Below are positions 7,901-37,496 of a stretch of DNA of 46,874 nt, piece after piece. The notes beneath the pieces are model-generated. The model was not told the DNA's origin and searched no databases. It saw only the letters and a list, made by a program, of their open reading frames with translations. Numbering within the stretch: position 1 is the first letter of the stretch; each line of letters begins with the position of its first letter. Made by a program: the position numbers and the translations under genes. The DNA is from a virus. The stretch covers positions 1 to 46,874 of IMG/VR virus record IMGVR_UViG_3300027631_000037; one strand, 5' to 3'.

Positions 7901-10900
7901 GTACTGGGGATTTAGATGATTATGTATTAAATTCAGTAACATCATCAATGACTGCAGGAACTGCATCAATTGCAATATCCGCATCATATGCATTAACCGC
8001 ATCTTTTGTATTAGGAGGAGCATTAACTGCAGATGGATTTGTTAAGAATGAACAAACGGCATCTATGCTTGTTGGAACTGCTTCATTAGCATTCCAAGCA
8101 TATACTGCATCATACGCATTGTTTGCGTTAAATGCAGAAAACGTAGATACGGCATCTTTATTACAAGCATATCAAGATAGTACAATATATGCAAACTTTG
8201 TGGTTACGGGAAGTTTAGGAGCAAGTGGTAGTATTTTTGTAGATAATTTTTATACATCATCTGCATCTGATTTAGTAGTTGTTTGGAGTCCTATAACTAA
8301 AAAAGTAGAAGCACGAAACGTACAAGAGGCAGCAGGTACATCTGGAATTGATGGTACTATGGGAACATCCGGCTCATCCGGAAGTAGTGGTAGTAGTGGC
8401 TCATCCGGAAGTAGTGGAAGTAGTGGTTCATCTGGTTCGTCTGGAACATCTGGTTCTGATGGTTCATCGGGAAGTAGCGGAAGTAGTGGTTCTTCTGGAA
8501 GTAGCGGAAGTAGCGGTTCTTCTGGAAGTAGTGGTACGGCTGGTACATCGGGAACATCTGGTTCTGATGGTTCATCGGGAAGTAGTGGAAGTAGTGGCTC
8601 ATCGGGAAGTAGTGGAAGTAGTGGCTCATCTGGAAGTAGTGGTTCATCTGGAAGTAGTGGTACGGCTGGAAGTAGTGGTACATCTGGTACATCAGGTTCC
8701 ACTGGAACGGCGGGTACGTCAGGAACAACTGGTTCTAGTGGCACATCGGGAACTTCTGGTTCATCGGGAACTTCTGGTTCATCAGGAACTTCTGGCACAT
8801 CTGGTTCGTCTGGAAGTGGAGGAACTACGGGTTCATCTGGAACAACGGGCTCATCTGGAACTTCAGGAACATCAGCAACGTCTGGAACTGCTGGAACTAG
8901 TGGTAGTAGTGGAACGGCGGGTAGTAGTGGAACTACGGGTAGTAGTGGTACAACTGGCTCTCAAGGAACATCGGGAACTTCTGGGTCATCAGGAACAGCT
9001 GGTACATCCGGCTCAACTGGTACGAATGGAACTTCTGGGTCATCAGGAACTTCTGGGTCATCCGGAACATCCGGTGAAGATGGTACATCTGGTTCATCGG
9101 GAACGTCTGGTTCATCTGGTATCGCCGGGTCATCTGGTACTTCAGGAACTTCAGGAACATCTGGTACATCTGGATTGAAAGGTGAGGATGGTACTTCGGG
9201 AACTTCTGGTGAGGATGGTACTTCGGGAACTTCTGGAAGTAGTGGTTCATCTGGGTCAACGGGTTCAAGTGGTACAACGGGTTCTTCTGGTTCATCGGGA
9301 AGTAGCGGTTCATCTGGAACTTCGGGTTCGTCTGGTTCTTCTGGAAGTAGTGGCTCGTCTGGTACAACTGGGTCTGATGGTACAAGCGGAAGTAGTGGAA
9401 GTAGTGGAAGTAGTGGAACTGCAGGAACATCTGGTTCTTCTGGAAGTAGTGGGTCATCTGGTACAACTGGTTCTGATGGTACATCGGGAACTGCTGGTTC
9501 ATCTGGAAGTGGAGGAAGTAGTGGAAGTAGTGGTAGCAGTGGAAGTAGTGGTTCATCTGGCACAACTGGTTCGGATGGTACATCTGGTACAACAGGTACA
9601 TCGGGAACTGCTGGAACGGCTGGAAGTAGTGGTTCATCGGGAACATCTGGTTCTGATGGTTCATCAGGAAGTAGCGGTACAGCTGGAAGTAGTGGTACGA
9701 CTGGTTCGGAAGGAACTTCAGGTTCATCAGGATCATCTGGTACAGCTGGCACTTCAGGAACATCTGGTTCGTCTGGGTCATCTGGTTCGTCTGGAAGTAG
9801 TGGTACTACTGGTTCGGAAGGAACATCAGGTTCTTCTGGAAGTAGTGGCACATCTGGAACGGATGGTACAAGTGGAAGTAGTGGAAGTAGTGGAAGTGCT
9901 GGGACTAGTGGTTCAACTGGTTCAACCGGTACATCTGGAAGTAGTGGTTCGTCTGGTTCGGATGGTTCATCTGGCTCAAATGGTTCATCGGGTACTGATG
10001 GTTCGTCTGGTTCAGCTGGCTCAACGGGTTCAGCTGGAAGTAGTGGTTCATCGGGCTCTACGGGTTCTACTGGTACATCTGGTACAAGTGGAAGTAGTGG
10101 AACTGATGGCTCAACAGGTTCGGCTGGTACATCTGGCACTGATGGTACAACGGGTTCAGCTGGTTCATCTGGTAGTAGTGGTTCATCTGGTATAAATGGT
10201 ACATTCTTTGGAAGTAGTGGTACAACTGGTTCAGCTGGTTCATCTGGTTCAACGGGCACAGCTGGTTCTTCTGGAACTGCTGGTTCATCTGGAAGTAGTG
10301 GTTCATCGGGTCTTAATGGTACATTCTTTGGTTCGTCTGGAACTGCCGGCTCATCTGGAAGTAGTGGTTCTACTGGAACTGATGGTACTTCAGGTTCAGC
10401 TGGTTCATCTGGTTCATCTGGAAGTGGTGGTTCATCTGGTTCATCCGGTCTTAATGGTACATTCTTTGGTTCGTCTGGTTCTTCTGGCTCGTCTGGTAGT
10501 GATGGAACATCGGGTACTACTGGTACATCTGGTTCATCGGGAACTGCTGGAAGTAGTGGTGTAAATGGTACATTCTTTGGAACTAGCGGAGAATCAGGAA
10601 CATCTGGTTCAGCTGGTACATCGGGTGTGGATGCAACAAATGGTACATCTGGTACAACGGGAACTTCTGGTTCATCGGGATTGAATGGTACATTCTTTGG
10701 CTCATCCGGAACTTCTGGTTCATCGGGTTCATCTGGTTCATCTGGCTCTGCTGGGTCTACTGGAACTGATGGTACATCGGGTTCAGCTGGTTCGTCTGGT
10801 TCAACAGGTAGTAATGGTGTAAACGGAACATTCTTTGGAACTAATGGTACATCTGGTTCAGATGGTTCGTCTGGTAGTGGAGGCACATCAGGAACTGACG

Positions 10901-11766
10901 GTTCAACAGGTACGGCTGGTTCTTCTGGTTCTGCTGGTTCATCTGGTTCATCTGGAAGTAGTGGAGTAAATGGTACATTCTTTGGAAGTAGTGGAACAGC
11001 TGGTTCAACTGGAACTGCAGGAACATCGGGTACAAATGGTACAACAGGAACTGCTGGTTCATCCGGGTCATCTGCAACAAATGGTACATCGGGAAGTAGT
11101 GGAGTGAATGGTACATTCTTTGGAAGTAGTGGTTCGTCTGGAAGTGGAGGTTCGTCTGGTACATCAACACCTGGCATTACATCTGGAACGTCTGGCACAT
11201 CGGTACCTGGCATTACATCTGGAACTTCTGGCACGGGTGCTACTGCTGGTACATCTGGTGCATTATTACTTAGTGGAACAACTGATAATGGTTTATTAAC
11301 ATTAAACGGAACTCCACCAAACGCAACGGTAGAAAATAATTTAACTTTTGATGGTACTACACTAACATTAGCAGGAGCATTAAGCCAAACCGGTAATATA
11401 ACATTAACAGGTAATTTGGGAGCAAGTGGATTTATAAATTCAACGGTTTATAGAGAAACATTCAGTGATTTGGGAACTGGTGGTTCTTCTACATTGGATT
11501 TATCAACAGCAAATAACTTTAGAAGACAATTTAACGGAGCAGCAACACTTACATACACAAATGCACCAACATCTCCTATTGGATTTGGATTTACATTAAT
11601 TACCGTAAATGCCGGCGCATATTCAATAACATGGCCTGCATCGGTAGATTGGGTTGGTGGAACTGCACCAATATTAACATCATCTGGTACGGACGTTTTA
11701 GTATTCTATACTTACAATGGTGGAACTACATATTACGGATTTGTAACAGGTAAAAATTTAAGTTAA
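1951..11766 (+). CDS. Giant tail fibre 1 with Gly-X-Y tract and cupredoxin-like inserts
   Basis: A 3271-residue single frame. Residues ~1-1760 hold about 21 copies of a module built around SGS[VAI]TAS[VI]SP and GSG[EK]GLFNIP, the beta-rich repeat style of phage fibre shafts. Two cupredoxin-like inserts sit at residues ~530-610 and ~1100-1180; the second keeps His1117, Cys1163, His1166 and Met1169. Residues ~2130-3104 form an almost uninterrupted Gly-X-Y tract of Ser, Thr, Ala and Asp with virtually no proline, broken eight times by NGTFFG. The C-terminal ~165 residues are a beta-rich tip beginning TTDNGLLTLNG, a module also found after the Gly-X-Y tract of the second fibre. By position and architecture this is a long tail fibre or adhesin; receptor unknown. 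The repeats make this region prone to recombination and assembly error. Confidence 0.85.
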   Translation: MAISNLLTGRVRVVNPKNVTSDRYQFLDLSQAEPNLGVPNFSASLLTNPAIVVSDDQGNRGFARTISLDEISGSFSGSFQGNGSNLTNLPVAPFIASGSGTASFVDGNLNINTNTLIDGNLYVSETIFAEQLLVSYISSSIIYSSGSNKFGDEITDRQEFTGSVEIRDRIGANAITASSITASFTGSFFGDARDLFNLPQATRLASGSVTASVSPDIGFQVISVVSGSTFTGSLFVSGNVVIPSGSGFFSGSGEGLFNIPLSALNIDSLVSTRIASGSVTASIAPNTGLVVNTTITASMYSGSGRGLFDIPLNALSQEANRIASGSVTASVSPNNGFVVISQVSGSQFYGNVFVNSGSYFTGSGAGLSNIPRSAITEDSNRISSGSATASISPDFGLVVTSKSGSKFDSTLFVTGGYTDVSGSGDIISISAYGSIYLYTGSYSGSGRLLRDIPLDAIKDLDLSKIGSGSVTGSISPDYGFRVNTFSEISGSLIVSSSAVEIATSSLTTVFNVINIGISAWNVNGQGNPALDLVRGVDYTFNINASGHPFYLKITSSLGTGDQYSDGVANNGTDNGILTFTPPTGSPDRLYYVDPDHDTMIGTVILHDVLTRPSQIKFIGDTTITGSLFVKDRIEAREISASFSGSGKNLFDIPQSALSGDSARIASGSVTASVSPNTGFVVTSVDSGSIFSGSVYLSSGSFFSGSGEGLFNIPRTAFSGDTPRIASGSITASVSPDFGFKVEASEVGSQFTGSVNMSQSLTVGGVISGDGSGITNINLSNLSFEATRIASGSITASVSPNFGLKVESWNSGSQFTGSLFVSGGRGVEITSGSSFSGSGAKLFDIPLSALSDLDLSKIFSGSATASIAPNTGFVVNTFSTFQFPISASMFSGSGKGLFDIPFTSLTGDSPRIASGSATASISPNLGMVVNTRITASSFSGSGEGLFNIPQSALSSEVFRISSGSVTASVDPVYGFRVEAGVLGSEFSGSVEISGGLFVSGGNITALSGSTFSGSGEGLFNIPESALSFKLNRIGSGSVTASISPDYGFNVNTFSEISGSFIVSSSIREVATSSLNTIFNVTNNGSGEYVFSGAISGSNSTLTLVRGVEYTFNLSAPGHPFWIKTISGTGTDNAYNTGVVNNGDDNGVITFNPISGSPSQLYYNCQLHSSMAGIINLVNAITIPAEIKLIGDTTITGSLLIEGTVTSSMFSGSGKGLFDIPFSNITGDAFRIASGSVTASVSPEEGFKVISIESGSNFTGSLFVSGNITIPSGSGFFSGSGEGLFNIPESALSFSPNRIASGSVTASVSPAVGFIVESFESGSSFSGSILIDSSSFIFSEGTYLRNIPRSALTEDALISTEIKSGSVTASVSPDYGFDVKTGFSGSDFGSRFTGSIDVSGSVQAFSFVGDGSQLTNVVAAASPLIASGSATASVASGERFVVNTAKTGSQIGSEFTGSIDVSGSIKAFSFIGDGSQLANVFAQAAPFIASGSATASVASGNTFIVTTSATGSIIGTRITGSVDVSGSLRADDLTARGFVFGDGRFLTNVQAAAAPLIASGSATASVSSGKVFQVTTNAVSGGYYGSEFTGSVSISGSISSSRYDGDGGGLFNIPASALEDLQLDRIISGSGRAIVDPNKFDVNVPITASRYDGDGSGLFNIPANALEDLQLDRIKSGSVEAVISPNKGLEVNTKARISASLSVSGGLFVTGGNVNLASGSSFVGDGSGLTNINIANLSFETAILKSGSFTASISPNNGFVVNTSASIYGTTYSDKIITPEFTASGYAYSPLFTGSFLGTYNFQGNSAPAEDLDLLRYDSARGYFIPQPETSLTETVSFNNVSSLTVVHNLGIKYPMVQVYATGSEDQIIPGTIKSINDNTIQILFAGLTSGHVVIGSGGSLISGTIEGDRVIGNVLSASRADTARVADSVSGLDSASIGAILSASLNTGQFVLNSQTSSMAVFSAVSSSYALTASFALNAGGASGGTGDLDDYVLNSVTSSMTAGTASIAISASYALTASFVLGGALTADGFVKNEQTASMLVGTASLAFQAYTASYALFALNAENVDTASLLQAYQDSTIYANFVVTGSLGASGSIFVDNFYTSSASDLVVVWSPITKKVEARNVQEAAGTSGIDGTMGTSGSSGSSGSSGSSGSSGSSGSSGSSGTSGSDGSSGSSGSSGSSGSSGSSGSSGSSGTAGTSGTSGSDGSSGSSGSSGSSGSSGSSGSSGSSGSSGSSGTAGSSGTSGTSGSTGTAGTSGTTGSSGTSGTSGSSGTSGSSGTSGTSGSSGSGGTTGSSGTTGSSGTSGTSATSGTAGTSGSSGTAGSSGTTGSSGTTGSQGTSGTSGSSGTAGTSGSTGTNGTSGSSGTSGSSGTSGEDGTSGSSGTSGSSGIAGSSGTSGTSGTSGTSGLKGEDGTSGTSGEDGTSGTSGSSGSSGSTGSSGTTGSSGSSGSSGSSGTSGSSGSSGSSGSSGTTGSDGTSGSSGSSGSSGTAGTSGSSGSSGSSGTTGSDGTSGTAGSSGSGGSSGSSGSSGSSGSSGTTGSDGTSGTTGTSGTAGTAGSSGSSGTSGSDGSSGSSGTAGSSGTTGSEGTSGSSGSSGTAGTSGTSGSSGSSGSSGSSGTTGSEGTSGSSGSSGTSGTDGTSGSSGSSGSAGTSGSTGSTGTSGSSGSSGSDGSSGSNGSSGTDGSSGSAGSTGSAGSSGSSGSTGSTGTSGTSGSSGTDGSTGSAGTSGTDGTTGSAGSSGSSGSSGINGTFFGSSGTTGSAGSSGSTGTAGSSGTAGSSGSSGSSGLNGTFFGSSGTAGSSGSSGSTGTDGTSGSAGSSGSSGSGGSSGSSGLNGTFFGSSGSSGSSGSDGTSGTTGTSGSSGTAGSSGVNGTFFGTSGESGTSGSAGTSGVDATNGTSGTTGTSGSSGLNGTFFGSSGTSGSSGSSGSSGSAGSTGTDGTSGSAGSSGSTGSNGVNGTFFGTNGTSGSDGSSGSGGTSGTDGSTGTAGSSGSAGSSGSSGSSGVNGTFFGSSGTAGSTGTAGTSGTNGTTGTAGSSGSSATNGTSGSSGVNGTFFGSSGSSGSGGSSGTSTPGITSGTSGTSVPGITSGTSGTGATAGTSGALLLSGTTDNGLLTLNGTPPNATVENNLTFDGTTLTLAGALSQTGNITLTGNLGASGFINSTVYRETFSDLGTGGSSTLDLSTANNFRRQFNGAATLTYTNAPTSPIGFGFTLITVNAGAYSITWPASVDWVGGTAPILTSSGTDVLVFYTYNGGTTYYGFVTGKNLS
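2560..7225 (+). repeat. Degenerate protein-level repeat array in fibre 1
   Basis: About 21 imperfect copies of the sequence encoding [RK]I[AGS]SGS.TAS[VI]SP, usually followed by a GSG..LF[ND]IP segment and an FTGS or FSGS segment. Two cupredoxin-like domains interrupt the array. Copies differ at many silent and replacement sites, so this is an old array rather than a recent amplification. Confidence 0.8.
8338..11260 (+). repeat. Gly-X-Y low-complexity tract of fibre 1
   Basis: About 2.9 kb coding for Gly at every third residue, mainly GSS, GTS, GTT, GTA and GSD triplets. From about 10195 onward it is punctuated by eight copies of a sequence encoding NGTFFG, starting near 10195, 10315, 10453, 10564, 10684, 10822, 10969 and 11107. 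The tract is locally richer in G+C than its flanks, and its low stop-codon content creates long shadow reading frames on both strands. Confidence 0.9.
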
Positions 11767-13867: not shown

Positions 13868-16800
13868 ATGGAGTTCAAAGGTAAAAGTCCTAACGGGTTA
13901 AATCAAAATAGTATTAATAGTGTATCACTTTTTGTAAGTGGTTCACCTATTTTAAATGCATCATCCGAATCTGTAAATGTTGTAGGAAACTTTACGGCAT
14001 CCGCTGTTCAATCAAATGTAATTGGTACATCAAATAGTTCACCATTACAAATAAAAGCAAATACACAAATAACTGGTTCAGTACATGTAACAACATTTGT
14101 ATCGGCATCAACTTTGTATGGAACTTTAGTAGGAGATGGTAGTGGAATAACAAATATCCCAGCATCATCAATCGGAGATATTGATAGAATAAAATCAGGT
14201 TCAGCTCAAGCAATTATATCACCAAATAAAGGATTTGAGATTAATACCAAAACTTCTGTGGCTGGTAATTTAGCAGTTACTGGTTCTGTGAATATAACAA
14301 CTAATTTAAATGTTGCTGGTAGAATAACATCAACTGAATTAGTTACTGAATTTATTTCATCTTCAATAATTTATACAACTGGTTCATCTAAATTTGGTGA
14401 CCAATTAACTGATAAGCAAGAATTTACTGGTAGTGTTGCTATAACGGGAAGTATTTTACTATCTGGTAGTTTGAAAGTTGGAAATTTTCCAAACGATTCA
14501 ACAACCGATGAAGTTTTAGTATATAATACTGTAACTGGTATAGTTGGTAGAAAATACGCAGCAGCATCATCAGGAACATCAGGAACATCTGGTACAACGG
14601 GTTCAGCTGGTACATCCGGTACAACGGGTTCATCGGGAACTTCTGGAACTTCAGGATCGTCTGGTAGTGGTGGTACATCTGGTTCATCAGGAACATCTGG
14701 TTCATCGGGAACTTCTGGTTCATCTGGAACTTCTGGAAGTAGTGGTACAACTGGTTCATCGGGAACAACCGGAAGTGATGGTACTAGTGGTAGTGGTGGT
14801 TCATCAGGAACATCAGGAACTTCTGGCTCATCTGGAAGTGGAGGTACAACAGGTACATCGGGCTCATCTGGCACTGATGGTTCAACTGGTACTGGTGGTA
14901 CTTCGGGAACTTCTGGTTCATCCGGAACTGCTGGAAGTAGTGGTACAACGGGTTCGAGTGGTACAACGGGTTCTGCTGGTACGTCTGGTGTAAGTGGTAC
15001 GAATGGAACATCTGGTTCATCGGGAACTTCTGGTACAAATGGTTCAACTGGTAGTGGTGGTACATCGGGACTTAGTGGAGCAGCAGCAACTGCTGGTACG
15101 TCTGGCTCTAGCGGTACATCTGGTAGTAGTGGTACATCCGGTACAACGGGTTCGGCTGGTACATCCGGTATAACTGGAGCTGGTGGAGGTAGTGGTTCAT
15201 CTGGAAGTGGAGGTACTTCAGGAACTTCTGGAAGTAGTGGTACGGCTGGTACATCGGGAACTTCTGGTAGTGGGGGTTCGGCTGGTACAACGGGTACAGC
15301 TGGTTCTTCAGGTACTATGGGTACATCTGGAAGTGGAGGTAGTACGGGTACATCTGGAAGTGGTGGAACAACAGGTACAAGCGGTAGTGGAGGTACAACA
15401 GGTACAAGTGGTAGTGGTGGAACGTCTGGCACAAGTGGTAGTGGTGGAACGTCTGGATTAAATGGTACGAATGGTACATCAGGATCGTCTGGGTTAACTG
15501 GAACGGCTGGAAGTAGTGGTACATCAGGAACATCTGGTACAACCGGAACGTCTGGGTCAGCTGGTACATCAGGTACTGCTGGTACGGCGGGAAGTAGTGG
15601 TACAACAGGAACGTCTGGTTCGGCTGGAACATCAGGTACGGCAGGTACTGCTGGAAGTAGTGGTACGACTGGAACGTCTGGGTCAGCTGGAACATCTGGT
15701 TCAGCTGGTAGTGCTGGAACATCGGGAACATCTGGTTCATCTGGAAGTGGAGGAACGGCTGGAACATCTGGGTCAGCTGGTACATCAGGTTCGGCTGGAA
15801 CTTCTGGAAGTGGAGGAACGGCAGGTACATCAGGAACGTCTGGCACATCAGGTTCTACGGGTACAGCTGGTAGTGGTGGCACATCAGGAACTTCTGGAAG
15901 TAGTGGTACATCAGGTTCATCGGGAACACGTGGTACAAGCGGTACTGGGGGTACATCGGGATTATTAGCATTAACTGGTACAACTGATAATGGTGTAATT
16001 ACATTAAACGGAAGTGCACCAAACGGAACTGTTGAATCAAATTTAACTTTTAATGGTAGTACATTGACAGTAACTGGAGATGCTACAATTAGTGGTAACT
16101 TAACTGTTAGTGGTACAACAACATATATTAATACAACAACTCTTAACGTAGGTGATAATATTATTACACTTAATGCAGATATTGGCGCAGCAACAACACC
16201 ATCTGAAAATGCTGGTATAGAAGTTAAGAGAGGTAATGCAGCAACAAAAACATTTTATTGGGAAGAAGCAAATGATAGATGGTATGCAGAAGATGGTCTT
16301 TATGTAGGTGGTAATGTGGTTCTTAGTGGCACGGTTGATACTGGGCAAGGAGCAACTGAAGTACATTTAATGAACCAAAATATTCGTACTACGGATGCAG
16401 TAACATTTGCTACGGTTGATACTGGGCAAGGAGCAAACGAATTATACGCAATGAACCAAAACGTAAGAACTACGGATGCGGTTACATTTACTACGGTTGA
16501 TACTGGACAAGGTGCTAATGAACTTTACGCAATGAACCAAAACGTAAGAACTACGGATGCGGTTACATTTGCTACGGTTGATACTGGACAAGGTGCAAAC
16601 GAATTGTACGCAATGAATCAGAATGTTCGCACAACTGATGCTGTTACATTTGCTACGGTAGATACTGGACAAGGAGCAACCGAAGTTCACTTAATGAATC
16701 AGAATTTAAGAACAATCGATTCTCCAACATTCGCAACATTAAATACGGGACAAGGTGCAAACGAATTGTACGCAATGGACCAAAATGTTCGTTCTACTGA

Positions 16801-19800
16801 TTCACCCACATTTGCAACGGTAAATACGGGACAAGGAGCAAATGAATTGTACGCAATGGACCAAAATGTTCGTACAACCGATTCGGTAACATTTGCAAAT
16901 GTAACTTCAAATTTAACTGGTACTGCTGATAGAGCTGAAGCAGTTGATTCAAACGATACTCGTGCTACCAATGATACTCCATCATCTAGAGGAGCTGGTG
17001 TTTATTTTGATTTTAAACAAAACTCCACAAACGGATTAAGTGATGGTGGTACATATAATGGCCAAATGACTTGGAGAAGTTATGGTGGTAGTACCGATTT
17101 AAGTGGAGGACAACCAATGCAAATAGGATACACCGCTAATGGTAATCTTTGGACTAGAATGGGTACTGGTGCTAGTACTTGGGATAGTTGGAAAAAAATA
17201 TTAAATGAAACTAATTTTACATCATACGCACTACCACTAACAGGAGGAACACTTACGGGATATTTGTATATAAGAAAAACAGACCCAACAATATTCTTTC
17301 AAGATACAGACCATCGTTCAGCAATGATTCATGTAAACTCTAATATATTTTATGTATTAAGAGGAAATGGAACGGATAGTACAACTTGGGCAACTTCAAA
17401 TGGATATTGGCCAATGGAGTTGTATTTGGAAAATAACGCAGCAACTTTTGGTGGTACTGGTACTTTTATTGGTAGTGTTACTGCGGATTCATTTATTGAT
17501 AGAAACGATACGGCATATTTTGTAAATCCAAGAAGTAATTCTAGATTAAGTGGACTTCGTTTAGATGGAGTGGATAATGAAGCATCTGGTACTGATGCGA
17601 TTCTTTGGATTAACAAACCAAATAACAATGACTGGGGCATGATTGTTACCGGTGATTTGGATTATGGTATTGATTTAAGAATGGCAGCAAGTTCAACTTA
17701 CGCTTTTAGAATTACAGGAGGTGGTTCGGAAAGATTTAGAGTGAATGGAGCAGGTTCGGCATACGCATCAAACTTATTCCAAGCACCATCTATAAACGCA
17801 ACATATTATAATGATGAAGGTGGTACTTTTGCATTTAGAATAGGTAGTGGTACTGGTAATACAAGACATATTAACTTAGGTAATAGTACATCAGACCCAT
17901 CGGCAGTTGGTTCATCTACTGGTATATCTTCTGGACAAAGAAGCGATGGCCAACCATATTATTTATTATATGTAAAATCTCCATATAATAATGGATATGC
18001 AACTTATACAAGATTATCTGTTGGGTGGCATACTGGTTTGGAATTAGGTGGTAATCAATCATATGGTGGTACTAGAATTATGAACGATTCGCCTGGTGTA
18101 TCAACTACGGAATTGATGAGTATTGGTGCAGGTGATTCACATGTTAGAATTACAAACAATTTATATGTACCAATTGTATATGATAGAGATAGTACTTCAT
18201 ATTGGACAAACCCTGCTGGAGATTCTCAATTTAGTAATATAGAACTTGATGGTGTTTTATGGTCTAGAAATCACTATGGTAGAATTTATTTAGGAGGTAA
18301 CTTACATATAGATTCATACTCACATAGTATTTATCACAATTATTATACAAACAATCCAATACGAAACTATGGACATAACTATTTTAATGGATATGACCAT
18401 TATGATGTTTCAATTGGATATGCATATAGTTCGTATAGAGCACCATATTTTTATGATGTATATGATACTGCATATTATATAAATGCAAATGATAGTTCTA
18501 GATTATGGTATTTGGGAATTGGATATGAATCTCCTGAAAAAAGATTACATGTTACAGGAGACCACGGTTCAACAGCTATTAGATTAACTCTACCAGCAGC
18601 TTACAATGGAACTGGTCAAAGAGTTAGTATGCAGTGGTGGATATCCGAACCAGGTAATACTTGGAATGGTGCAGGATTTGGATACAATGTTGATAATAAC
18701 TTAAATAGTGGTACAAATACATACTATTGGGGTAGACCAAATACTAACTACGGACAAGCATATATAAGATTCTCGGAAGGTGGTGATATGTATTTTTATA
18801 ATACGAATACATCTGGTACACGTGTTACTAATTTGGAAATGTATCCAAATAATACGGTATATGCAAATAACTACTTAACTGGCGGTAACTCATTAAGAGC
18901 ACCAATATTCTACGATAACCAAGATACCGCATATTATGCTGACCCTAATGGTACATCTCACTTTAGTTCAATGTATATTTACAACGTTTATTATAGAGGT
19001 GATGGTAACTACGGAGCAATTGGTACAAACACATATAGAGATACTGTAAACTCTGGATATGATTCTGACCCATTAGAGTTAGTTTATTATAGAGGATATC
19101 CGGGTGTTAGAATTGGACCTGGTGGTGGTAATCGTTCATTAACAGCTGGTGACATTTATTCAAACGCATGGTATAGACAAAATACTTCAAATGGTTTCTA
19201 TTGGGAGCCGTATGGTAGAGGGTTCTTCTCACCTGAAGGTGGTGGTAACTCGTATGGCCACGTCACAACTTATGGTGGTGGTAGAAACGGATGGTATGGC
19301 TGGGGTATAGCTAGTACGCATTGTTTAATGAGTACTACTGGTGATAACGTTGGTTTGCATGATAATAGATATAGCTGGATTTGGTATTGGGATGGTGGAG
19401 CATTTAACGTATATAGAGGATATACTTATTCAGTAGGTTCGATGAGAACTCCCATATTCTACGATTCAAATAATACGGGATATTATATTGATGGAGATAA
19501 TACCTCTAGTTTAAACGCATTACATACAAATAACCATTATATTAGAGGTGGTTATATGTTGTATTCAGACCCTGGTGGATGGACTGGTGAATATTATAAA
19601 ATCCAATGGCATAGTTCGCATATGTATTTCCAAAGACAACAATGGGGATACTTTATATTCAGAAATCCAAATGGTAGTGAAGGAGCTTATATAAATGATA
19701 ACAACCTTTGGTTAGCATATTTGGGATGGATGAGTAATAACGTAAATCAAAGTGTAAGAACCGATGGTTCACCTACATTTAATGAGGTTTATGCAAACGG

Positions 19801-20650
19801 ATGGTTTAGAAACCAAGGTGGTGGTGGATTATATAGCCAATCATATGGAGGTCATAGTAGAACAAACTTATCATCATCATATGGATGTTGGGAAACGTGG
19901 GGATATTATAGAGGTGGATATGGTGGTATGTTGTGTCATGACCCATCTGGATATTATAATAACCTAATGTTTGAAAGAGGTAATGGTGGTATCTATGTAC
20001 AAAATCGTAATGGGTGGAGTTTCTATTATAGTGCAGATAACAGTTGTGCATCCGCAGCAGATTCAACGACATATGGATTTATTAGATTTAACGTTCAAGG
20101 TTCTGTAAGATTCCGTCAGTTTATTAATTTGAACTATAACGCAGATGGTAACATCGACCAAAATAATGGATTTGGTATTTACTATCGTTCTTCTGGTGGA
20201 TACAATACTGTAATGCAAACCGATGGATACCAATCAATTTATATGTTGAATGGTGGTGGTTCTTATGGTGGAGTGGTTTTATATCCTTACTACTATGGAT
20301 GGAGTGGTTATTCGGATGCTAATGTTAAAAATATACTTGGTGTAGTTACTGGTGTGCTTGATAAGGTAGATTCTTTAACACCTATATATTATACATATAA
20401 AATGGATTGTTTAGATCCTGAGTATGTAGAAGATACTAATATCAAAATGGGATTCACTGCACAAAATGTTCAGAGTGTTTTCCCTGAATTGGTAAGAACG
20501 GATGAAAAAAGTGGATTATTAACACTTGCAATGGATTCTTTGATTCCTGTATTGGTTCAATCGGTGAAAGAATTAAGAAATGAAATTAATTTCTTAAAAG
20601 CACAAAACGAATATTTATTAGAGAGAATAGAAAATTTAGAAAATAGTTAA
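13868..20650 (+). CDS. Giant tail fibre 2 with C-terminal S74 intramolecular chaperone
   Basis: 2260 residues. Residues ~1-230 share shaft modules with fibre 1, including the SSSIIY..GS.KFGD..TD.QEFTGSV segment. Residues ~234-698 form a Gly-X-Y tract without NGTFFG interruptions. A TTDNGVITLNG module then matches the tip module of fibre 1. Seven 27-residue repeats (DTGQGANELYAMNQNVRTTD) span nt 16331-16897. A region resembling pyocin-knob-type tail domains ends in WDSWKKIL. The large Tyr/Gly/Asn-rich receptor-binding part contains five copies of a YD..DT.YY..P...S motif. The last ~112 residues are a Peptidase_S74-type chaperone: the SDANVK segment gives Ser2149 and Lys2154, the expected self-cleavage Ser and +5 Lys, followed by IKMGFTAQNVQSVFPELV and a coiled-coil end. 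This domain is known to fold trimeric fibres and then cut itself off. Confidence 0.9.
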   Translation: MEFKGKSPNGLNQNSINSVSLFVSGSPILNASSESVNVVGNFTASAVQSNVIGTSNSSPLQIKANTQITGSVHVTTFVSASTLYGTLVGDGSGITNIPASSIGDIDRIKSGSAQAIISPNKGFEINTKTSVAGNLAVTGSVNITTNLNVAGRITSTELVTEFISSSIIYTTGSSKFGDQLTDKQEFTGSVAITGSILLSGSLKVGNFPNDSTTDEVLVYNTVTGIVGRKYAAASSGTSGTSGTTGSAGTSGTTGSSGTSGTSGSSGSGGTSGSSGTSGSSGTSGSSGTSGSSGTTGSSGTTGSDGTSGSGGSSGTSGTSGSSGSGGTTGTSGSSGTDGSTGTGGTSGTSGSSGTAGSSGTTGSSGTTGSAGTSGVSGTNGTSGSSGTSGTNGSTGSGGTSGLSGAAATAGTSGSSGTSGSSGTSGTTGSAGTSGITGAGGGSGSSGSGGTSGTSGSSGTAGTSGTSGSGGSAGTTGTAGSSGTMGTSGSGGSTGTSGSGGTTGTSGSGGTTGTSGSGGTSGTSGSGGTSGLNGTNGTSGSSGLTGTAGSSGTSGTSGTTGTSGSAGTSGTAGTAGSSGTTGTSGSAGTSGTAGTAGSSGTTGTSGSAGTSGSAGSAGTSGTSGSSGSGGTAGTSGSAGTSGSAGTSGSGGTAGTSGTSGTSGSTGTAGSGGTSGTSGSSGTSGSSGTRGTSGTGGTSGLLALTGTTDNGVITLNGSAPNGTVESNLTFNGSTLTVTGDATISGNLTVSGTTTYINTTTLNVGDNIITLNADIGAATTPSENAGIEVKRGNAATKTFYWEEANDRWYAEDGLYVGGNVVLSGTVDTGQGATEVHLMNQNIRTTDAVTFATVDTGQGANELYAMNQNVRTTDAVTFTTVDTGQGANELYAMNQNVRTTDAVTFATVDTGQGANELYAMNQNVRTTDAVTFATVDTGQGATEVHLMNQNLRTIDSPTFATLNTGQGANELYAMDQNVRSTDSPTFATVNTGQGANELYAMDQNVRTTDSVTFANVTSNLTGTADRAEAVDSNDTRATNDTPSSRGAGVYFDFKQNSTNGLSDGGTYNGQMTWRSYGGSTDLSGGQPMQIGYTANGNLWTRMGTGASTWDSWKKILNETNFTSYALPLTGGTLTGYLYIRKTDPTIFFQDTDHRSAMIHVNSNIFYVLRGNGTDSTTWATSNGYWPMELYLENNAATFGGTGTFIGSVTADSFIDRNDTAYFVNPRSNSRLSGLRLDGVDNEASGTDAILWINKPNNNDWGMIVTGDLDYGIDLRMAASSTYAFRITGGGSERFRVNGAGSAYASNLFQAPSINATYYNDEGGTFAFRIGSGTGNTRHINLGNSTSDPSAVGSSTGISSGQRSDGQPYYLLYVKSPYNNGYATYTRLSVGWHTGLELGGNQSYGGTRIMNDSPGVSTTELMSIGAGDSHVRITNNLYVPIVYDRDSTSYWTNPAGDSQFSNIELDGVLWSRNHYGRIYLGGNLHIDSYSHSIYHNYYTNNPIRNYGHNYFNGYDHYDVSIGYAYSSYRAPYFYDVYDTAYYINANDSSRLWYLGIGYESPEKRLHVTGDHGSTAIRLTLPAAYNGTGQRVSMQWWISEPGNTWNGAGFGYNVDNNLNSGTNTYYWGRPNTNYGQAYIRFSEGGDMYFYNTNTSGTRVTNLEMYPNNTVYANNYLTGGNSLRAPIFYDNQDTAYYADPNGTSHFSSMYIYNVYYRGDGNYGAIGTNTYRDTVNSGYDSDPLELVYYRGYPGVRIGPGGGNRSLTAGDIYSNAWYRQNTSNGFYWEPYGRGFFSPEGGGNSYGHVTTYGGGRNGWYGWGIASTHCLMSTTGDNVGLHDNRYSWIWYWDGGAFNVYRGYTYSVGSMRTPIFYDSNNTGYYIDGDNTSSLNALHTNNHYIRGGYMLYSDPGGWTGEYYKIQWHSSHMYFQRQQWGYFIFRNPNGSEGAYINDNNLWLAYLGWMSNNVNQSVRTDGSPTFNEVYANGWFRNQGGGGLYSQSYGGHSRTNLSSSYGCWETWGYYRGGYGGMLCHDPSGYYNNLMFERGNGGIYVQNRNGWSFYYSADNSCASAADSTTYGFIRFNVQGSVRFRQFINLNYNADGNIDQNNGFGIYYRSSGGYNTVMQTDGYQSIYMLNGGGSYGGVVLYPYYYGWSGYSDANVKNILGVVTGVLDKVDSLTPIYYTYKMDCLDPEYVEDTNIKMGFTAQNVQSVFPELVRTDEKSGLLTLAMDSLIPVLVQSVKELRNEINFLKAQNEYLLERIENLENS
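14566..15960 (+). repeat. Gly-X-Y low-complexity tract of fibre 2
   Basis: About 1.4 kb coding for Gly at every third residue, with more GSGG, GTTG and GSAG variation than fibre 1 and no NGTFFG breaks. It is flanked by modules homologous to those of fibre 1. Confidence 0.9.
16331..16897 (+). repeat. Seven tandem 81-bp repeats in fibre 2
   Basis: Seven in-frame 81-bp units encoding T[VL][DN]TGQGA[NT]E[LV] followed by [YH][AL]M[ND]QN. Units 2-4 are nearly identical, while units 1 and 5 carry ATEVHL in place of ANELYA. The period is exactly 27 codons across the array. Confidence 0.9.
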
Positions 20651-22119: not shown

Positions 22120-24468
22120 ATGGCAGAAAGAATCGTATCACCCGGTGTATTCACAAGAGAAAATGACCTATCCTTCTTAGCGCAAGGTATTGGTGAAATT
22201 GGAGCAGCATTCGTAGGACCTTTCAAACAAGGACCTGCATTCGTTCCAACAATTGTGAGAACGCAATCAGAATTCGAACAAATATTCGGAACACCTGATG
22301 GAACTTATTATACTGAATATGCAGTACAAAACTATTTAAGAGAAGCAGGTGCAGCAACTGTAGTAAGAGTAGCTGGTATCGGTGGATATGAGCAAAGAGC
22401 ACCTTTGGGTATCTTAGCATCATCTTCTCTTGGAACTAAACTTATTGGAACACTACACTCAACCAAATTTGGTGATGAGAATGTAGGTTTCACAGCAGCT
22501 AGTACAAACATCACAGCTAGTGCAACCATATCTGGTTCATTTGTGATATCTGGATTGGTTAGTTCTGGTTCAGCAGCAGCTAGTGTATCAGCATCAATCT
22601 TAGCATCAGCTACGAATGATTTAGCAGATGTATTTGGTGAATCTCCATTTGGAGCTAAAGCAGCTTACGCTTATACTTTCTTTGAAAATGCAGCATTATT
22701 ATATACTGGTTCAATAAATGATGGTTTAAATGGTGTTAGAATAACTGAATTAAATTTACCAACGCAAGATTTCACATATGATGCAACTGTAGCATCTACA
22801 CCTTGGGTTAAATCACAAATAGCTGATATAGTAAGTGGTGAAAGATATGACCTTTTCCGTTTCCATACTAATGGACATGGTAACACATACAATACTAAAT
22901 TTAAAGTTAGTATTTCAAATGTAAAGGCAGCTGGTGAAGATGGTTCAACTGATTATTCTACATTCACTATAACTCTTAGAGGATTTTCCGATACTGATAA
23001 GAGAAAGAGTGTTATGGAAACATACAATAACGTAAACTTAGACCCATCATCTCCTAGATTTATTTCTAGAGTGATAGGTGATAGATATTTTACAATAGAT
23101 GATAATGGCAAATTAACTGAATTTGGTGATTATTCAAACAAATCAGCATATGTAAGAGTTGAAGTATCAGCTGCAGGTTCATACGCAATATCAGCAGCTC
23201 CTTTTGGACACGCTGCTTATATTAACCCAATTACAACTAATAACGCAACTGAAGCATCATATGTACCACCGGTAGTTTACCAAACTGGTTCAGCAAATAA
23301 CACATCTTCATCTCCTGTATATTATGCTGGATTTGATTTTGAGACAAGTGGTGTTGAAATGGATAACAAACAATATTGTAATCCAATTCCTGATGGTGCT
23401 GTTGCTGGGGCAAATACTATATTTGCATTTGATTCTCAACTTACTTATCAAATGACTGGTTCAAGTGCATCTGATATGGTTAAGAGACAATTTGTAATAG
23501 CATTCCAAGGTGGTTTTGATGGTGTTAATCCAACTAAAACCATAGCTAAAGCTGGAGATAATGATTGGGGAGCAGCAAACAATCAGGGTTTTGATTGTGC
23601 TCGTTCAACATCATCTGGTTCAGTAGGATATTCAAAAGCAATTAACGCTTTATCAAATCCTGATGAGTATGATATCAATTTGATTTCAACTCCTGGTATT
23701 AATAGAGAATTACACCCTGCAATTACTCAAAAGGTAATTGATATGTGTGAAGATAGACAAGATACTTTCTATATTGCAGATTTTACGGATTATGATTCAT
23801 CTATAACGGTAGCAACTGAGCAAGCAAATTCAGTAGATTCAAATTATGTAGCTTGTTACTATCCTTGGATGAAGACTATTGATTCTAACACAAATAAACT
23901 TACAACTGTACCTCCATCTACATTATTACCAGCGGTATTCGCTAGTAGTGATAGATTATCGGCTGAGTGGTTCGCACCTGCTGGTTTGAATAGAGGTGGT
24001 ATTACTGGAGCAGTTAGTGTATTGAATAGATTAACACATTCTGAAAGAGATACTTTATATGAGAACAAAGTAAACCCAATTGCAACTTTCCCTGGACAAG
24101 GTATCGTAGCATTCGGACAAAAGACTTTGCAAGATAAGGCATCGGCATTAGATAGAATCAACGTAAGAAGATTATTAATCACTGTTAAGAAATTTATCGC
24201 TTCAACATCTCGTTATTTAGTATTTGAACAAAATACTACGGAGACTAGAAATAGATTTATCAACACTGTAACTCCTTACTTAGAGGGTATCCAACAAAGA
24301 CAAGGTTTGTACGCATTCAATGTTGTAATGGATGATTCTAATAACACACCGGATGTGATTGATAGAAACATATTAGCAGGAGCAATTTTCCTTCAACCGG
24401 CTAAGACAGCTGAATTCATCGTAATTGATTTCAACATCTTACCAACTGGAGCAAGTTTCTCAGCATAA
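22120..24468 (+). CDS. gp18: Tail sheath protein
   Basis: 782 residues. The N-terminus (AERIVSPGVFTRENDLSFL, then GEIGAAFVGPFKQGPAFVPTIV) is the hallmark of T4-type sheath proteins, including the N-terminal strand that links neighbouring subunits. The C-terminal ~250 residues (FAPAGLNRGGITGAV, NPIATFPGQGIVAFGQKTL, RRLLITVKKFI, TAEFIVIDFNILPTG) match the conserved inner sheath domain. T4 gp18 has 659 residues; the extra length lies in the middle, including a Ser/Ala-rich insert near residues 125-165, probably on the outer surface. The protein forms the contractile outer tube. It is followed by the tail tube gene, as in T4. Confidence 0.95.
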   Translation: MAERIVSPGVFTRENDLSFLAQGIGEIGAAFVGPFKQGPAFVPTIVRTQSEFEQIFGTPDGTYYTEYAVQNYLREAGAATVVRVAGIGGYEQRAPLGILASSSLGTKLIGTLHSTKFGDENVGFTAASTNITASATISGSFVISGLVSSGSAAASVSASILASATNDLADVFGESPFGAKAAYAYTFFENAALLYTGSINDGLNGVRITELNLPTQDFTYDATVASTPWVKSQIADIVSGERYDLFRFHTNGHGNTYNTKFKVSISNVKAAGEDGSTDYSTFTITLRGFSDTDKRKSVMETYNNVNLDPSSPRFISRVIGDRYFTIDDNGKLTEFGDYSNKSAYVRVEVSAAGSYAISAAPFGHAAYINPITTNNATEASYVPPVVYQTGSANNTSSSPVYYAGFDFETSGVEMDNKQYCNPIPDGAVAGANTIFAFDSQLTYQMTGSSASDMVKRQFVIAFQGGFDGVNPTKTIAKAGDNDWGAANNQGFDCARSTSSGSVGYSKAINALSNPDEYDINLISTPGINRELHPAITQKVIDMCEDRQDTFYIADFTDYDSSITVATEQANSVDSNYVACYYPWMKTIDSNTNKLTTVPPSTLLPAVFASSDRLSAEWFAPAGLNRGGITGAVSVLNRLTHSERDTLYENKVNPIATFPGQGIVAFGQKTLQDKASALDRINVRRLLITVKKFIASTSRYLVFEQNTTETRNRFINTVTPYLEGIQQRQGLYAFNVVMDDSNNTPDVIDRNILAGAIFLQPAKTAEFIVIDFNILPTGASFSA

Positions 24469-35354: not shown

Positions 35355-35726
35355 ATGAATGATGATTTAAATAATATATTTAGGTACAGCTATCTTAATA
35401 GAAAAATTGGTATGGATTTTACAATACCAACTATAATTGCATATTTACCTGAATTGACAAATGATGATTATACTAGAGGTTATGTTGTCAGAAACTTTGT
35501 GCAAAAAGTAAATGATGATACTGCAACTATAACGGAGATAGATGACAATAATCATACGGAAATACAAGCAAATGCATATTATAAAATAGTTAAAATTAAA
35601 TGGAGATTGATTGGAACTCCGCAAGAAATTATGGATTCTAATAAAGCTTCTATTGGATTGGTAATATCTGAAATGAAAAATTTAAAATTGTATCTTTCAA
35701 ATCTTTTACAATTTGCTAAAGTTTAA
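35355..35726 (+). CDS. Small protein paired with the hub gene
   Basis: 123 residues from ATG 35355, one base after the hub stop. A longer frame from TTG 35346 overlaps the hub gene and is less likely. The protein begins MNDDLNNIFRYSYLNRKIG and ends in a helical KNLKLYLSNLLQFAKV. The middle (YKIVKIKWRLIGTPQE) is beta-like. No known motif. Coupling to the hub gene suggests a baseplate component or chaperone. Confidence 0.65.
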   Translation: MNDDLNNIFRYSYLNRKIGMDFTIPTIIAYLPELTNDDYTRGYVVRNFVQKVNDDTATITEIDDNNHTEIQANAYYKIVKIKWRLIGTPQEIMDSNKASIGLVISEMKNLKLYLSNLLQFAKV

Positions 35727-35758
35727 TTTGGTAGTTTAACAAATTATTCGTATATTTA
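35727..35758 (+). promoter_or_regulatory. Bacteroidetes-type promoter for the tmRNA
   Basis: TTTG at 35727-35730, a 20-bp spacer, and TATATTTA at 35751-35758, 13 bp before the predicted tmRNA 5' end. It matches the Bacteroidetes TTTG/TAnnTTTG consensus apart from the last base. The -33 element overlaps the stop codon region of the previous gene. Confidence 0.7.
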
Positions 35759-35771
35759 CATAAACAAACTT

Positions 35772-36154
35772 GGGGGTGCCTTGGAATTGATTGTGATGAG
35801 AATAGTAGTATCACACGTAGACAGAAGTGCTAGATGTCTTTAAATCTGTACAAAACAATAACTGACGTAGAATTATCTACTTGGACCTACGAAGACTTAA
35901 TGTCTTTCATGGGTGCTGACTTAGCAATAGCTGCATAGTCCCTCCCGTATCACTCATGGGAATGAAATAGAAGTGAACAAAACGGAGTTTTACATATCGG
36001 CTCCCTAAATCTGATAAGTTGGTGGAATTGCTGAATTAACCATTCGGCCCCAATTATTTTGGAAAGTTAATAAGATTAAACTTTATCCTAAACGTGTAAT
36101 TCGTTGGTATTACGATTACTTTGCAAGACATGGGTTCGAATCCCATCACCTCCA
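35772..36154 (+). ncRNA. ssrA: Transfer-messenger RNA (tmRNA)
   Basis: A 383-nt one-piece tmRNA. The acceptor stem pairs GGGGGTG (35772-35778) with CACCTCC (36147-36153) over 7 bp, with a G.U at the third pair, the alanine identity signal. A74-type discriminator follows; CCA is not encoded. The T arm is ATGGG-TTCGAAT-CCCAT (36130-36146). The 5' part TTGGAATTGATTGTG fits the reduced D-loop of tmRNAs. Around the resume site the sequence TTTAAATCTGTA...AACT resembles Bacteroides tmRNA. The tag frame is read as starting at GAC 35864 and ends at TAG 35936-35938. tmRNA with SmpB rescues stalled ribosomes and tags products for proteolysis. It has its own promoter and terminator. Phage tmRNAs are known but uncommon. 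Confidence 0.95.
35864..35938 (+). other. Predicted tmRNA proteolysis-tag reading frame
   Basis: From GAC 35864 the frame has 24 codons, starting DVELSTW and ending GADLAIAA, then TAG. The resume codon was placed by aligning the flanking AAC..T.[AT]CTG[AG]C with my memory of Bacteroides tmRNA, where the tag starts GE. A later start is possible, which would shorten the tag. The end of the frame is firm. Confidence 0.65.
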
Positions 36155-36158
36155 CAAT

Positions 36159-36195
36159 AATCCCGAACTATATTTGGTAGTTTGGGATTTTTTTT
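36159..36195 (+). terminator. Intrinsic terminator of the tmRNA
   Basis: A 12-bp stem, AATCCCGAACTA (36159-36170) with TAGTTTGGGATT (36178-36189), one G.T pair, a 7-base loop, and eight T at 36188-36195. The loop contains the -33 element of the next promoter. Confidence 0.9.
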
Positions 36196-36204
36196 GTATA
36201 TTTG
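36173..36204 (+). promoter_or_regulatory. Bacteroidetes-type promoter for the polymerase-like gene
   Basis: TTTG at 36173-36176, a 20-bp spacer, and TATATTTG at 36197-36204, a perfect match to the consensus. The expected transcription start is within a few bases of the ATG at 36210, so the message would be leaderless or nearly so. Confidence 0.75.
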
Positions 36205-36209
36205 TATCT

Positions 36210-37496
36210 ATGAATATTGTTGAGTCTATTGAGGAAGTTAATCAACTAAAAGAAAAGCTGGAAACGGAAGCATCTATTTGGTATCCATTATGGGTAGATA
36301 ATAGTAAGCATCCGTTAAACACTTCTCTTTCGCTCGTAGTTGTACGATGTTCCGATGGTTTGTACATTCTACCACATAAACATACAGACGCTCTTGCGTT
36401 AAGTAATGAGCAAATAGAGACCATACTTAATACCAACGGACAAAAGTGGATATTCCAAAAGAAAAAGATATTACATACTCTTAATGTTTCGGTAAATCTA
36501 TATGATGTAGATTCAGCATACTTTAGAAAGGAAGCTAAGGTAATTGATTATGAAGCCCCTTTAAATCCTCTCCTTTCAACTCTAACTCATAAAGGGTATA
36601 GAGATGACTTGATACAATCCCTTCCTCTAATGAAGATTGTAGAAGTAATACAACCACAATTCGGTAAGTACTTCCATAAAGAACCTTACACTACTACTCT
36701 TAAGTGGTACAACGAAGTGTTTATACCTACCCTTTCAGATATCGAACAATTTGGAATCCGTGTCGATGGGAAAAAATTTACTGATAGATGGCCACAAGCC
36801 TCCAAACAGCTTTCACCCGATAATTTAGTGTTTACGGAATACAATCCATTTACGGTGACAGGTAGACCATCCAATAGACATGGCGGTGTGAATTACGCCG
36901 CCTTAAATAAAACCGATGGTAGTAGAGAATGTTTTGTTTCCGATGGGATATTCCTACAAATGGATTATAACGCATATCACCCACGCCTAATTGGTAAGTT
37001 GGTGAACTTTGAACTCCCAACAACCAGTGTACATGAGTGGTTAGCTGAACAATATGGTTGTAGTGTGGATGAATCTAAGGGAATTACGTTTCAATTACTT
37101 TATGGTGGTATTGATGATGACTTCCGACAAATCCCATACTTTAATGCGGTGGCTGATTACATTGATACCTTATGGATTGATGTACAAAAGAAGGGTTACT
37201 TACAAACACCTCATAGAGAAATCCCATTAAGTTGGATAGAGCAACCAAACGCACAAAAGGTATTCAACTATCTATTACAAGCCGTTGAGACTGAGATGAA
37301 TATTGAGGTTATGAGAAAAATATTGGATTATATAAAGGGAAGTGGTATTAACTTTTGTTTATATACCTATGACTCGTTCCTTTTTGATGTTCCGACTGAT
37401 ATTGATAAGAGTTTGATTAGAGGATTGAAGGAAATCATCGAAGGAAGTGGTTTCCCTGTTAAGGCTAGTTGGGGTTTGGATTACGGAAAACTATAA
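36210..37496 (+). CDS. Family A DNA polymerase-like protein
   Basis: 428 residues from ATG 36210; the frame extends back to a TTG at 36174, but that lies inside the terminator and promoter. Polymerase I-type motifs appear in order: FTVTGRPSN with Thr217-Arg219; motif A MDYNAYHPR with Asp252; motif B SKGITFQLLYGG with Lys290, Tyr298 and Gly299; the helix QKVFNYLLQAVETEM with Asn353 and Gln357; and motif C YTYDSF with Asp388. The usual motif A Glu is His, and the Glu of the HDE motif C is Ser. Both metal-binding Asp are present. Residues 1-160 show no clear 3'-5' exonuclease motif. T4 relatives usually copy DNA with a family B enzyme, so this may serve repair, lesion bypass or gap filling. Activity is not certain given the substitutions. 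Confidence 0.75.
   Translation: MNIVESIEEVNQLKEKLETEASIWYPLWVDNSKHPLNTSLSLVVVRCSDGLYILPHKHTDALALSNEQIETILNTNGQKWIFQKKKILHTLNVSVNLYDVDSAYFRKEAKVIDYEAPLNPLLSTLTHKGYRDDLIQSLPLMKIVEVIQPQFGKYFHKEPYTTTLKWYNEVFIPTLSDIEQFGIRVDGKKFTDRWPQASKQLSPDNLVFTEYNPFTVTGRPSNRHGGVNYAALNKTDGSRECFVSDGIFLQMDYNAYHPRLIGKLVNFELPTTSVHEWLAEQYGCSVDESKGITFQLLYGGIDDDFRQIPYFNAVADYIDTLWIDVQKKGYLQTPHREIPLSWIEQPNAQKVFNYLLQAVETEMNIEVMRKILDYIKGSGINFCLYTYDSFLFDVPTDIDKSLIRGLKEIIEGSGFPVKASWGLDYGKL

Follow-up and report, generated by a model that had tools for sequence, protein, structure and literature searches.

A conserved tmRNA gene with an extended tag peptide in a lineage of contractile-tail phages

Ribosomes stalled on broken mRNAs are rescued by alanine-charged tmRNA together with SmpB, and the ALAA-type end of the appended tag is read by Clp proteases (PMC3985003). 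The Bacteroidota-type tmRNA gene ssrA (family RF00023) has an acceptor stem with G3.U70, a T arm, helix H2, pseudoknots PK1-PK4 and a resume site after PK1. Its tag of 9 residues ends with AxAA, followed by UAA or UAG. The tag of the Mycoplasma tmRNA, which is degraded by Lon, is extended and much longer than usual. Mycoplasma tags end with AFA and occur in hosts without ClpXP/AP (PMC3985003). A list of phage tmRNAs is available, and mycobacteriophage DS6A has a gene reduced to the tRNA-like domain (PMC4131195). tmRNA and SmpB have been reported for huge phages in general (PMC7162821). Thus both phage tmRNAs and one extended phage tag, that of the Bxz1 type, were already known. What is new in the locus described here is an extended tag that is conserved and nearly fixed in a phage lineage.

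The window, that is, the whole stretch of 46,874 nucleotides analysed here, is a linear virus record of 46.9 kb and a piece of the genome of a contractile-tail phage. A complete tmRNA gene had been predicted in it at 35772-36154, and both ARAGORN and a covariance-model search with RF00023 (Rfam cmscan) place the gene there, on the plus strand. The RF00023 match at 35772-36157 (+) scores 73.1 bits (E 1.2e-26; the gathering score is 47 bits) and spans all 374 model positions. The 3' end is set at 36155 by ARAGORN and at 36157 by Rfam, 36154 being the discriminator base. CCA is not encoded in the window, where ACAA is found instead, but is encoded in many relatives. By both programs the tmRNA is the sole RNA gene in the window. 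The observation of a complete tmRNA is thus confirmed, and the tag is corrected below. The elements of the gene are as follows.

35772..36154 (+), tmRNA gene, from the 5' end to the discriminator base, by RF00023 and ARAGORN
35772..35778 (+), 5' strand of the acceptor stem, pairing with 36147-36153, third pair G.U
35791..35818 (+; 35791-35796 and 35806-35818), 5' strand of H2, partners at 36121-36126, 36106-36112 and 36092-36097, by RNAalifold and pair counts
35819..35851 (+), PK1, AGACA/UGUCU crossed by GUGC/GUAC, with covariation in alignment A1
35864..35938 (+), tag reading frame, resume codon GAC, peptide DVELSTWTYEDLMSFMGADLAIAA, stop codon UAG at 35936-35938
35943..35976 (+), PK2, UCCC/GGGA crossed by UCACU/AGUGA, with compensatory changes
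35984..36018 (+), PK3, GGAG/CUCC crossed by CAUAUC/GAUAAG, with one A.A mismatch in the window
36020..36048 (+), PK4, UGGU/ACCA crossed by GCUGAA/UUCGGC
36130..36146 (+), T arm, AUGGG UUCGAAU CCCAU, 100% of cells paired in 40 relatives

Forty representatives were aligned (alignment A1). RNAalifold recovers the acceptor stem, H2 and the T arm; the pseudoknots PK1-PK4 were derived by hand and their pairs then counted. The intact acceptor stem of the original prediction, GGGGGUG/CACCUCC, is there; its fifth pair switches between A-U and G-C with changes on both sides, and the G.U at the third pair is invariant (40/40). The T arm, also predicted, is present as well, and four of its five pairs vary on both sides among the 40 relatives. 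The tRNA-like domain, which is without an anticodon stem, combines the alanine identity pair G3.U70 with a T arm. The check for loss of pseudoknot helices that had been proposed found all four crossing helix pairs present, most of them with compensatory changes. In PK2, the window type UCCC/GGGA is replaced by UUCC/GGAA, ACCC/GGGU or UCUC/GAGA; in PK3, the variants are CCUAUC/GAUAGG, CAUAUC/GAUAUG, CCUAUU/AAUAGG and UUCGUU/AACGAA, the outer helix of this pseudoknot being weak across cassette types. The second helix of PK4 covaries at two pairs, and the first is almost invariant.

In the 40 representatives 92.0% of cells are paired, compared to 84.2 in shuffles. Changes on both sides are seen in 29 pairs (17.9 in shuffles) and in 200 cells (59 in shuffles), and the covariation score is 0.245 (0.125 in shuffles). 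None of 500 shuffles was as high on the structure measures, with the exception of the number of pair types (155/500). When the partners were slid by 1-3 columns, pairing fell to 38-49%, a control that leans in favour of the structure because the latter was partly derived from the same sequences. The region of PK2 and PK3 (A1 columns 183-310) occurs as several unlike cassette types, e.g. in loci L117, L099, L100 and L134. Since these cassettes are combined with different tag classes, the pattern suggests recombination within the tmRNA gene.

A tag frame had been claimed as well, with no statement of which frame it was. The frame exists and starts at 35864, after PK1 and directly behind AAUAACU. 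A tag reading frame with a stop codon lies between PK1 and PK2 in all 63 distinct relatives, and in all 63 the tag is of the same kind, with 23-26 residues; examples are DVELSTWTFEDAMAFVGADYAVAA, DEMSTMTFDSMMEFIGASEYAYAA, AEELSSWTFEDAMAFVGADYAVAA and ADVELSTMTFGDAMAWMESFDYAVAA. The lineage tags end with A[VIY]AA, so that AxAA is kept in every one, and the consensus extension DVELSTWTFEDxMxF precedes GADYAVAA. In a codon alignment, pN/pS of the tag is 0.43 in frame, and the other two frames give 1.33 and 1.46; with random column order, a value as extreme as the real one is reached in 2 of 200 trials (20 sequences). This codon-aligned test supersedes a pairwise estimate of 0.72 made without codon alignment. 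All indels within the tag in the alignment of the 40 representatives are whole codons. The tag peptide is under purifying selection, and as the constraint is frame-specific, the peptide itself matters.

The tag given by ARAGORN, VNKTEFYISAP (frame at 35973), was rejected: it lies in PK2/PK3, is found in 31 of the 63 relatives and has no frame-specific constraint. ARAGORN reports a wrong tag in 18 of the 63 relatives' tmRNAs and misses another three altogether. With such misreadings by the standard finder, extended tags in phages may be reported less often than they occur. No copy of the tag motif was found elsewhere in the genomes of the large relatives, except for one weak match (E 0.02), and the tag peptide has no match among named phages. 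A pattern scan of the genome collection gave a single match, in a Sandarakinorhabdus contig with no tmRNA there, which was taken as chance.

The RNA of this lineage has the same anatomy as the Bacteroidota-type tmRNA, but differs in its tag and its location. For comparison we used viral contigs that hold Bacteroidota-type tmRNAs, their taxonomy being deduced from the tags together with the neighbours of locus L307. The five contigs encode GENNYALAA, GETNYALAA, GEYNYAMAA, GEENYALAA and GENNYALAA. The short tag GExNYA[LM]AA of about 9 residues does not occur in the window lineage, and the YAxAA-like end alone is common to both. The lineage tag contains approximately 45 extra bases between the resume site and this end. 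Moreover, the gene is phage-encoded and stands between tail and replication genes. The lineage resembles Mycoplasma in the length of the tag but keeps AxAA, as all tags end with A[VIY]AA, whereas Mycoplasma is without an ALAA-type end.

Other phages that carry a full tmRNA, as here, are Bacillus phage G, Streptomyces phages Jay2Jay, Spelly and Phredrick, and Mycobacterium phage ET08 (Bxz1 species), used as a stand-in for Bxz1. All five have tRNA genes no further than 1.5 kb from the tmRNA, whereas the window tmRNA stands alone; their tag sequences are unrelated to those of the window lineage. In Bacillus phage G a tRNA with the UUA (ochre suppressor-like) anticodon adjoins the tmRNA (L324:1373-1446, by ARAGORN). 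Tag lengths measured in the same way are 11, 13 and 9 residues in the Streptomyces phages and 13 in Bacillus phage G, and the ET08 tag is likewise extended, with 25 residues (ATDTDATVTDAEIEAFFAEEAAALV). The 484-kb phage LR756508, whose sheath and polymerase make it a distant cousin, has a full tmRNA at 92434-92880 with a 36-residue tag, GVNNADYESAGFTAEDFAQMDGESLYHGSERKPAAV, read after an AUAACU site; this reading is less sure, as ARAGORN gives a different frame. By eye, a capping-box-like motif T-x-x-[DE] is common to the three extended phage tag kinds, although it is too short for significance. Extended tags, as read from these genomes, are not unique to the window lineage, yet here they are conserved over many members.

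The same phage LR756508 contains a 112-nt tmRNA-like gene (L087:1501-1612, LR756508.1:414804-414915; 58.2 bits) that has G3.U70 and a T arm and is without the mRNA-like domain. It resembles the gene of DS6A and would qualify as a molecule of that domain-only type; the window RNA, with its full mRNA-like domain, does not.

The surroundings of the gene in the window are the following.

35355..35726 (+), upstream neighbour, small tail-region protein, at the same place in relatives with 30-57% identity
35727..35759 (+), tmRNA promoter, TTTGG at 35727-35731 and TATATTTAC at 35751-35759, spacer N19
36159..36195 (+), terminator, hairpin AATCCCGAACTA/TAGTTTGGGATT and T run, by sequence and fold
36173..36204 (+), promoter of the next gene, TTTGG at 36173-36177 and TATATTTG at 36197-36204
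36210..37496 (+), downstream neighbour, PolA-like DNA polymerase (phrog_17, E 2e-12), at the same place in relatives

Both the promoter and the terminator of the original prediction were found. The former is TTTGG-N19-TATATTT, 14 bases 5' of the gene, and the pattern TTG-N17..23-TAnnTTT occurs upstream of the tmRNA in 40/40 representatives. TTTGG-N19-TATATTTAC is of the promoter type of Bacteroidota. The latter is a hairpin with a T run, and similar hairpins lie 3' of the tmRNA in most relatives. The polymerase promoter overlaps the tmRNA terminator (36159-36204), its TTTGG box being in the hairpin loop region, and this arrangement recurs in relatives. On the 5' side of the tmRNA are genes for tail fibres, sheath (22120-24468), tube, and baseplate hub and wedge; on the 3' side, for the PolA-like protein, Endonuclease_NS, a GH19-type endolysin and a single-strand binding protein. 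Two of the tail fibre genes are huge, 1951-11766 (3271 aa) and 13868-20650 (2260 aa), with repeated matches to collagen-like/tail-fibre families. The small upstream protein (35355..35726) has no family match. As a 126-aa query it gave no match in viral contigs, which is explained by fast divergence of this family; local tblastn did find relatives. The site had been described as a tail-to-accessory junction; it is better named a baseplate-to-DNA-polymerase junction.

Relatives were collected in several ways. The sheath protein as query gave 80 viral loci, and among the records searched, a tmRNA above the family threshold was found in 11 viral contigs and in LR756508. A 20-base DNA pattern from the tmRNA gave 104 viral contigs, in all of which the tmRNA was confirmed by profile. 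The pattern and the polymerase loci together yielded the 63 distinct full tmRNAs; some contigs may represent the same phage in different samples. Of the 78 loci found with the polymerase as query, 72 have the tmRNA upstream, five start inside the polymerase gene and one (L234) has none. Where the flanks are present, the gene order is gp25-like wedge, large baseplate protein, small upstream protein, tmRNA, polymerase, endonuclease. Thus, of the 73 viral contigs that extend to the junction of the last baseplate gene and the PolA-like gene, 72 have the tmRNA there, and the view that phage copies are uncommon fails in this lineage. L234, a close relative, is truly without the tmRNA; a ParB-like-looking ORF of 132 aa (L234:3565-3963) lies instead between its small tail-region gene and the polymerase. 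Distances between tmRNAs correlate with those between polymerases (Mantel r 0.46; a value as high in 0 of 2000 permutations), and there has been some exchange between lineages. The near-universal presence, the one relative without the gene and the correlated distances mean that the phage lineage has long had the tmRNA, which is nearly fixed in it but can be dispensed with. The outside sequences closest to it by profile are tmRNAs of the Bacteroidota type, the resemblance (21 bits) being mainly in the 3' domain. The suggestion of a captured host gene holds therefore only for a remote origin, as the gene is now an old syntenic phage gene with a different, longer tag.

The host is apparently a member of Bacteroidota. 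Three things suggest this: the promoter type, a cousin among Flavobacterium phages, and published lake myoviruses of Bacteroidetes that encode bS21 (PMC9723584). These myoviruses and the huge phages (PMC7162821) are, like the window lineage, large contractile-tail phages, and some members of the window lineage also encode bS21; the word tmRNA does not occur in the text index of PMC9723584. Two cultured phages, Flavobacterium phage immuto (160 kb) and Microcystis phage Mel-JY01 (190 kb), are cousins whose sheath and polymerase are distantly related to those of the lineage; neither has a tmRNA above the family threshold. No SmpB was found in the contigs of relatives and cousins and no ClpP in those of relatives, in both cases including contigs of 274, 207 and 188 kb; these contigs may be incomplete. 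The large relatives have tRNA arrays located away from the tmRNA, and together with bS21 in some members these make translation supply a theme of the lineage. In all three near-genome-size relatives (274, 188 and 207 kb) a GOLLD RNA (RF02032, 285-307 bits) lies beside the tRNA array: L311 (G060:90652-91065), L312 (G062:126620-127027) and L313 (G061:76458-76864). GOLLD near tRNAs and phages was already known (PMC6582537, PMC12286853).

All sequence features needed for trans-translation are present in the window RNA. The most probable reading (about 0.7) is that it is a working phage trans-translation RNA that would borrow the host SmpB and add a longer, phage-specific tag. The close relative L234, which does without the gene, speaks against it. 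The steps from expression to proteolysis, among them charging and the use of host SmpB, and the function of the extension are inferred to be as follows. The RNA would be transcribed from its own promoter, trimmed and supplied with CCA by host enzymes, and charged with alanine through G3.U70. During infection, host SmpB and EF-Tu would bring it to ribosomes halted on broken mRNAs. The ribosome would resume at GAC (35864), append A-DVELSTWTYEDLMSFMGADLAIAA and be released at UAG. The C-terminal AxAA would keep the unfinished protein a target of host Clp-type proteolysis, and the N-terminal extension of about 15 residues may act as a further recognition module specific to the phage, with a protease or an adaptor as its most likely partner. 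The original prediction that the phage may supplement or replace host ribosome rescue fits this course, to which an intact, constrained RNA, its own promoter and a selected tag are now added, the role itself being a probable one.

One possibility is that the phage RNA mainly replaces host tmRNA destroyed or exhausted by host defence or by the phage. Ribosome release alone would then matter, and the extension would serve to avoid or slow proteolysis or be a lineage-specific by-product. The full rescue anatomy of the RNA, its dedicated promoter, the tRNA arrays of the large relatives and bS21 in some of them are all consistent with replacement. On the other hand, a by-product could do without the in-frame constraint seen throughout the extension, and all tags retain AxAA, normally the signal for Clp, which speaks against avoidance of proteolysis. 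This explanation is thus unlikely. Still less probable is that the RNA inhibits host trans-translation by titrating SmpB or occupying ribosomes, as proposed for molecules consisting of the tmRNA domain only. Such genes do exist in DS6A (PMC4131195) and, with 112 nt, in the distant cousin LR756508, but the lineage has kept the complete mRNA-like domain, all four pseudoknots and a tag under constraint, none of which a decoy needs. Passive capture of a host ssrA or an attachment-site remnant, functionless in the phage, would agree with the profile similarity to Bacteroidota-type tmRNAs, but is largely refuted by the synteny across the whole lineage with own promoter and terminator, the correlation with polymerase distances, the constrained tag unlike the Bacteroidota type, and the lack of an integrase among the families matched in the window.

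To return to a working RNA with a phage-specific tag, Mycoplasma, the closest precedent for an extended tag, has lost the ALAA-type end, whereas the window lineage has kept it. From this difference, the better guess is that the extension is an additional signal rather than a replacing one. It is possible, but tentative, that it is a phage-specific routing signal directing rescued proteins to another protease, adaptor or phage factor than the host-tagged ones.

Lists of phage tmRNAs go back years, but no purpose has been demonstrated for them. A tmRNA that a whole lineage keeps at one place, with a selected tag of non-Bacteroidota type, provides a handle for direct tests of why phages carry this gene. 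The extension of about 15 residues over the ordinary 9-residue tag can be shortened, swapped or frameshifted to see the effect. If the routing is true, the phage would control the fate of unfinished proteins during infection, and the extended tags in three groups (23-26 aa in this lineage, 36 in LR756508 and 25 in the Bxz1 type) would represent a shared phage strategy.
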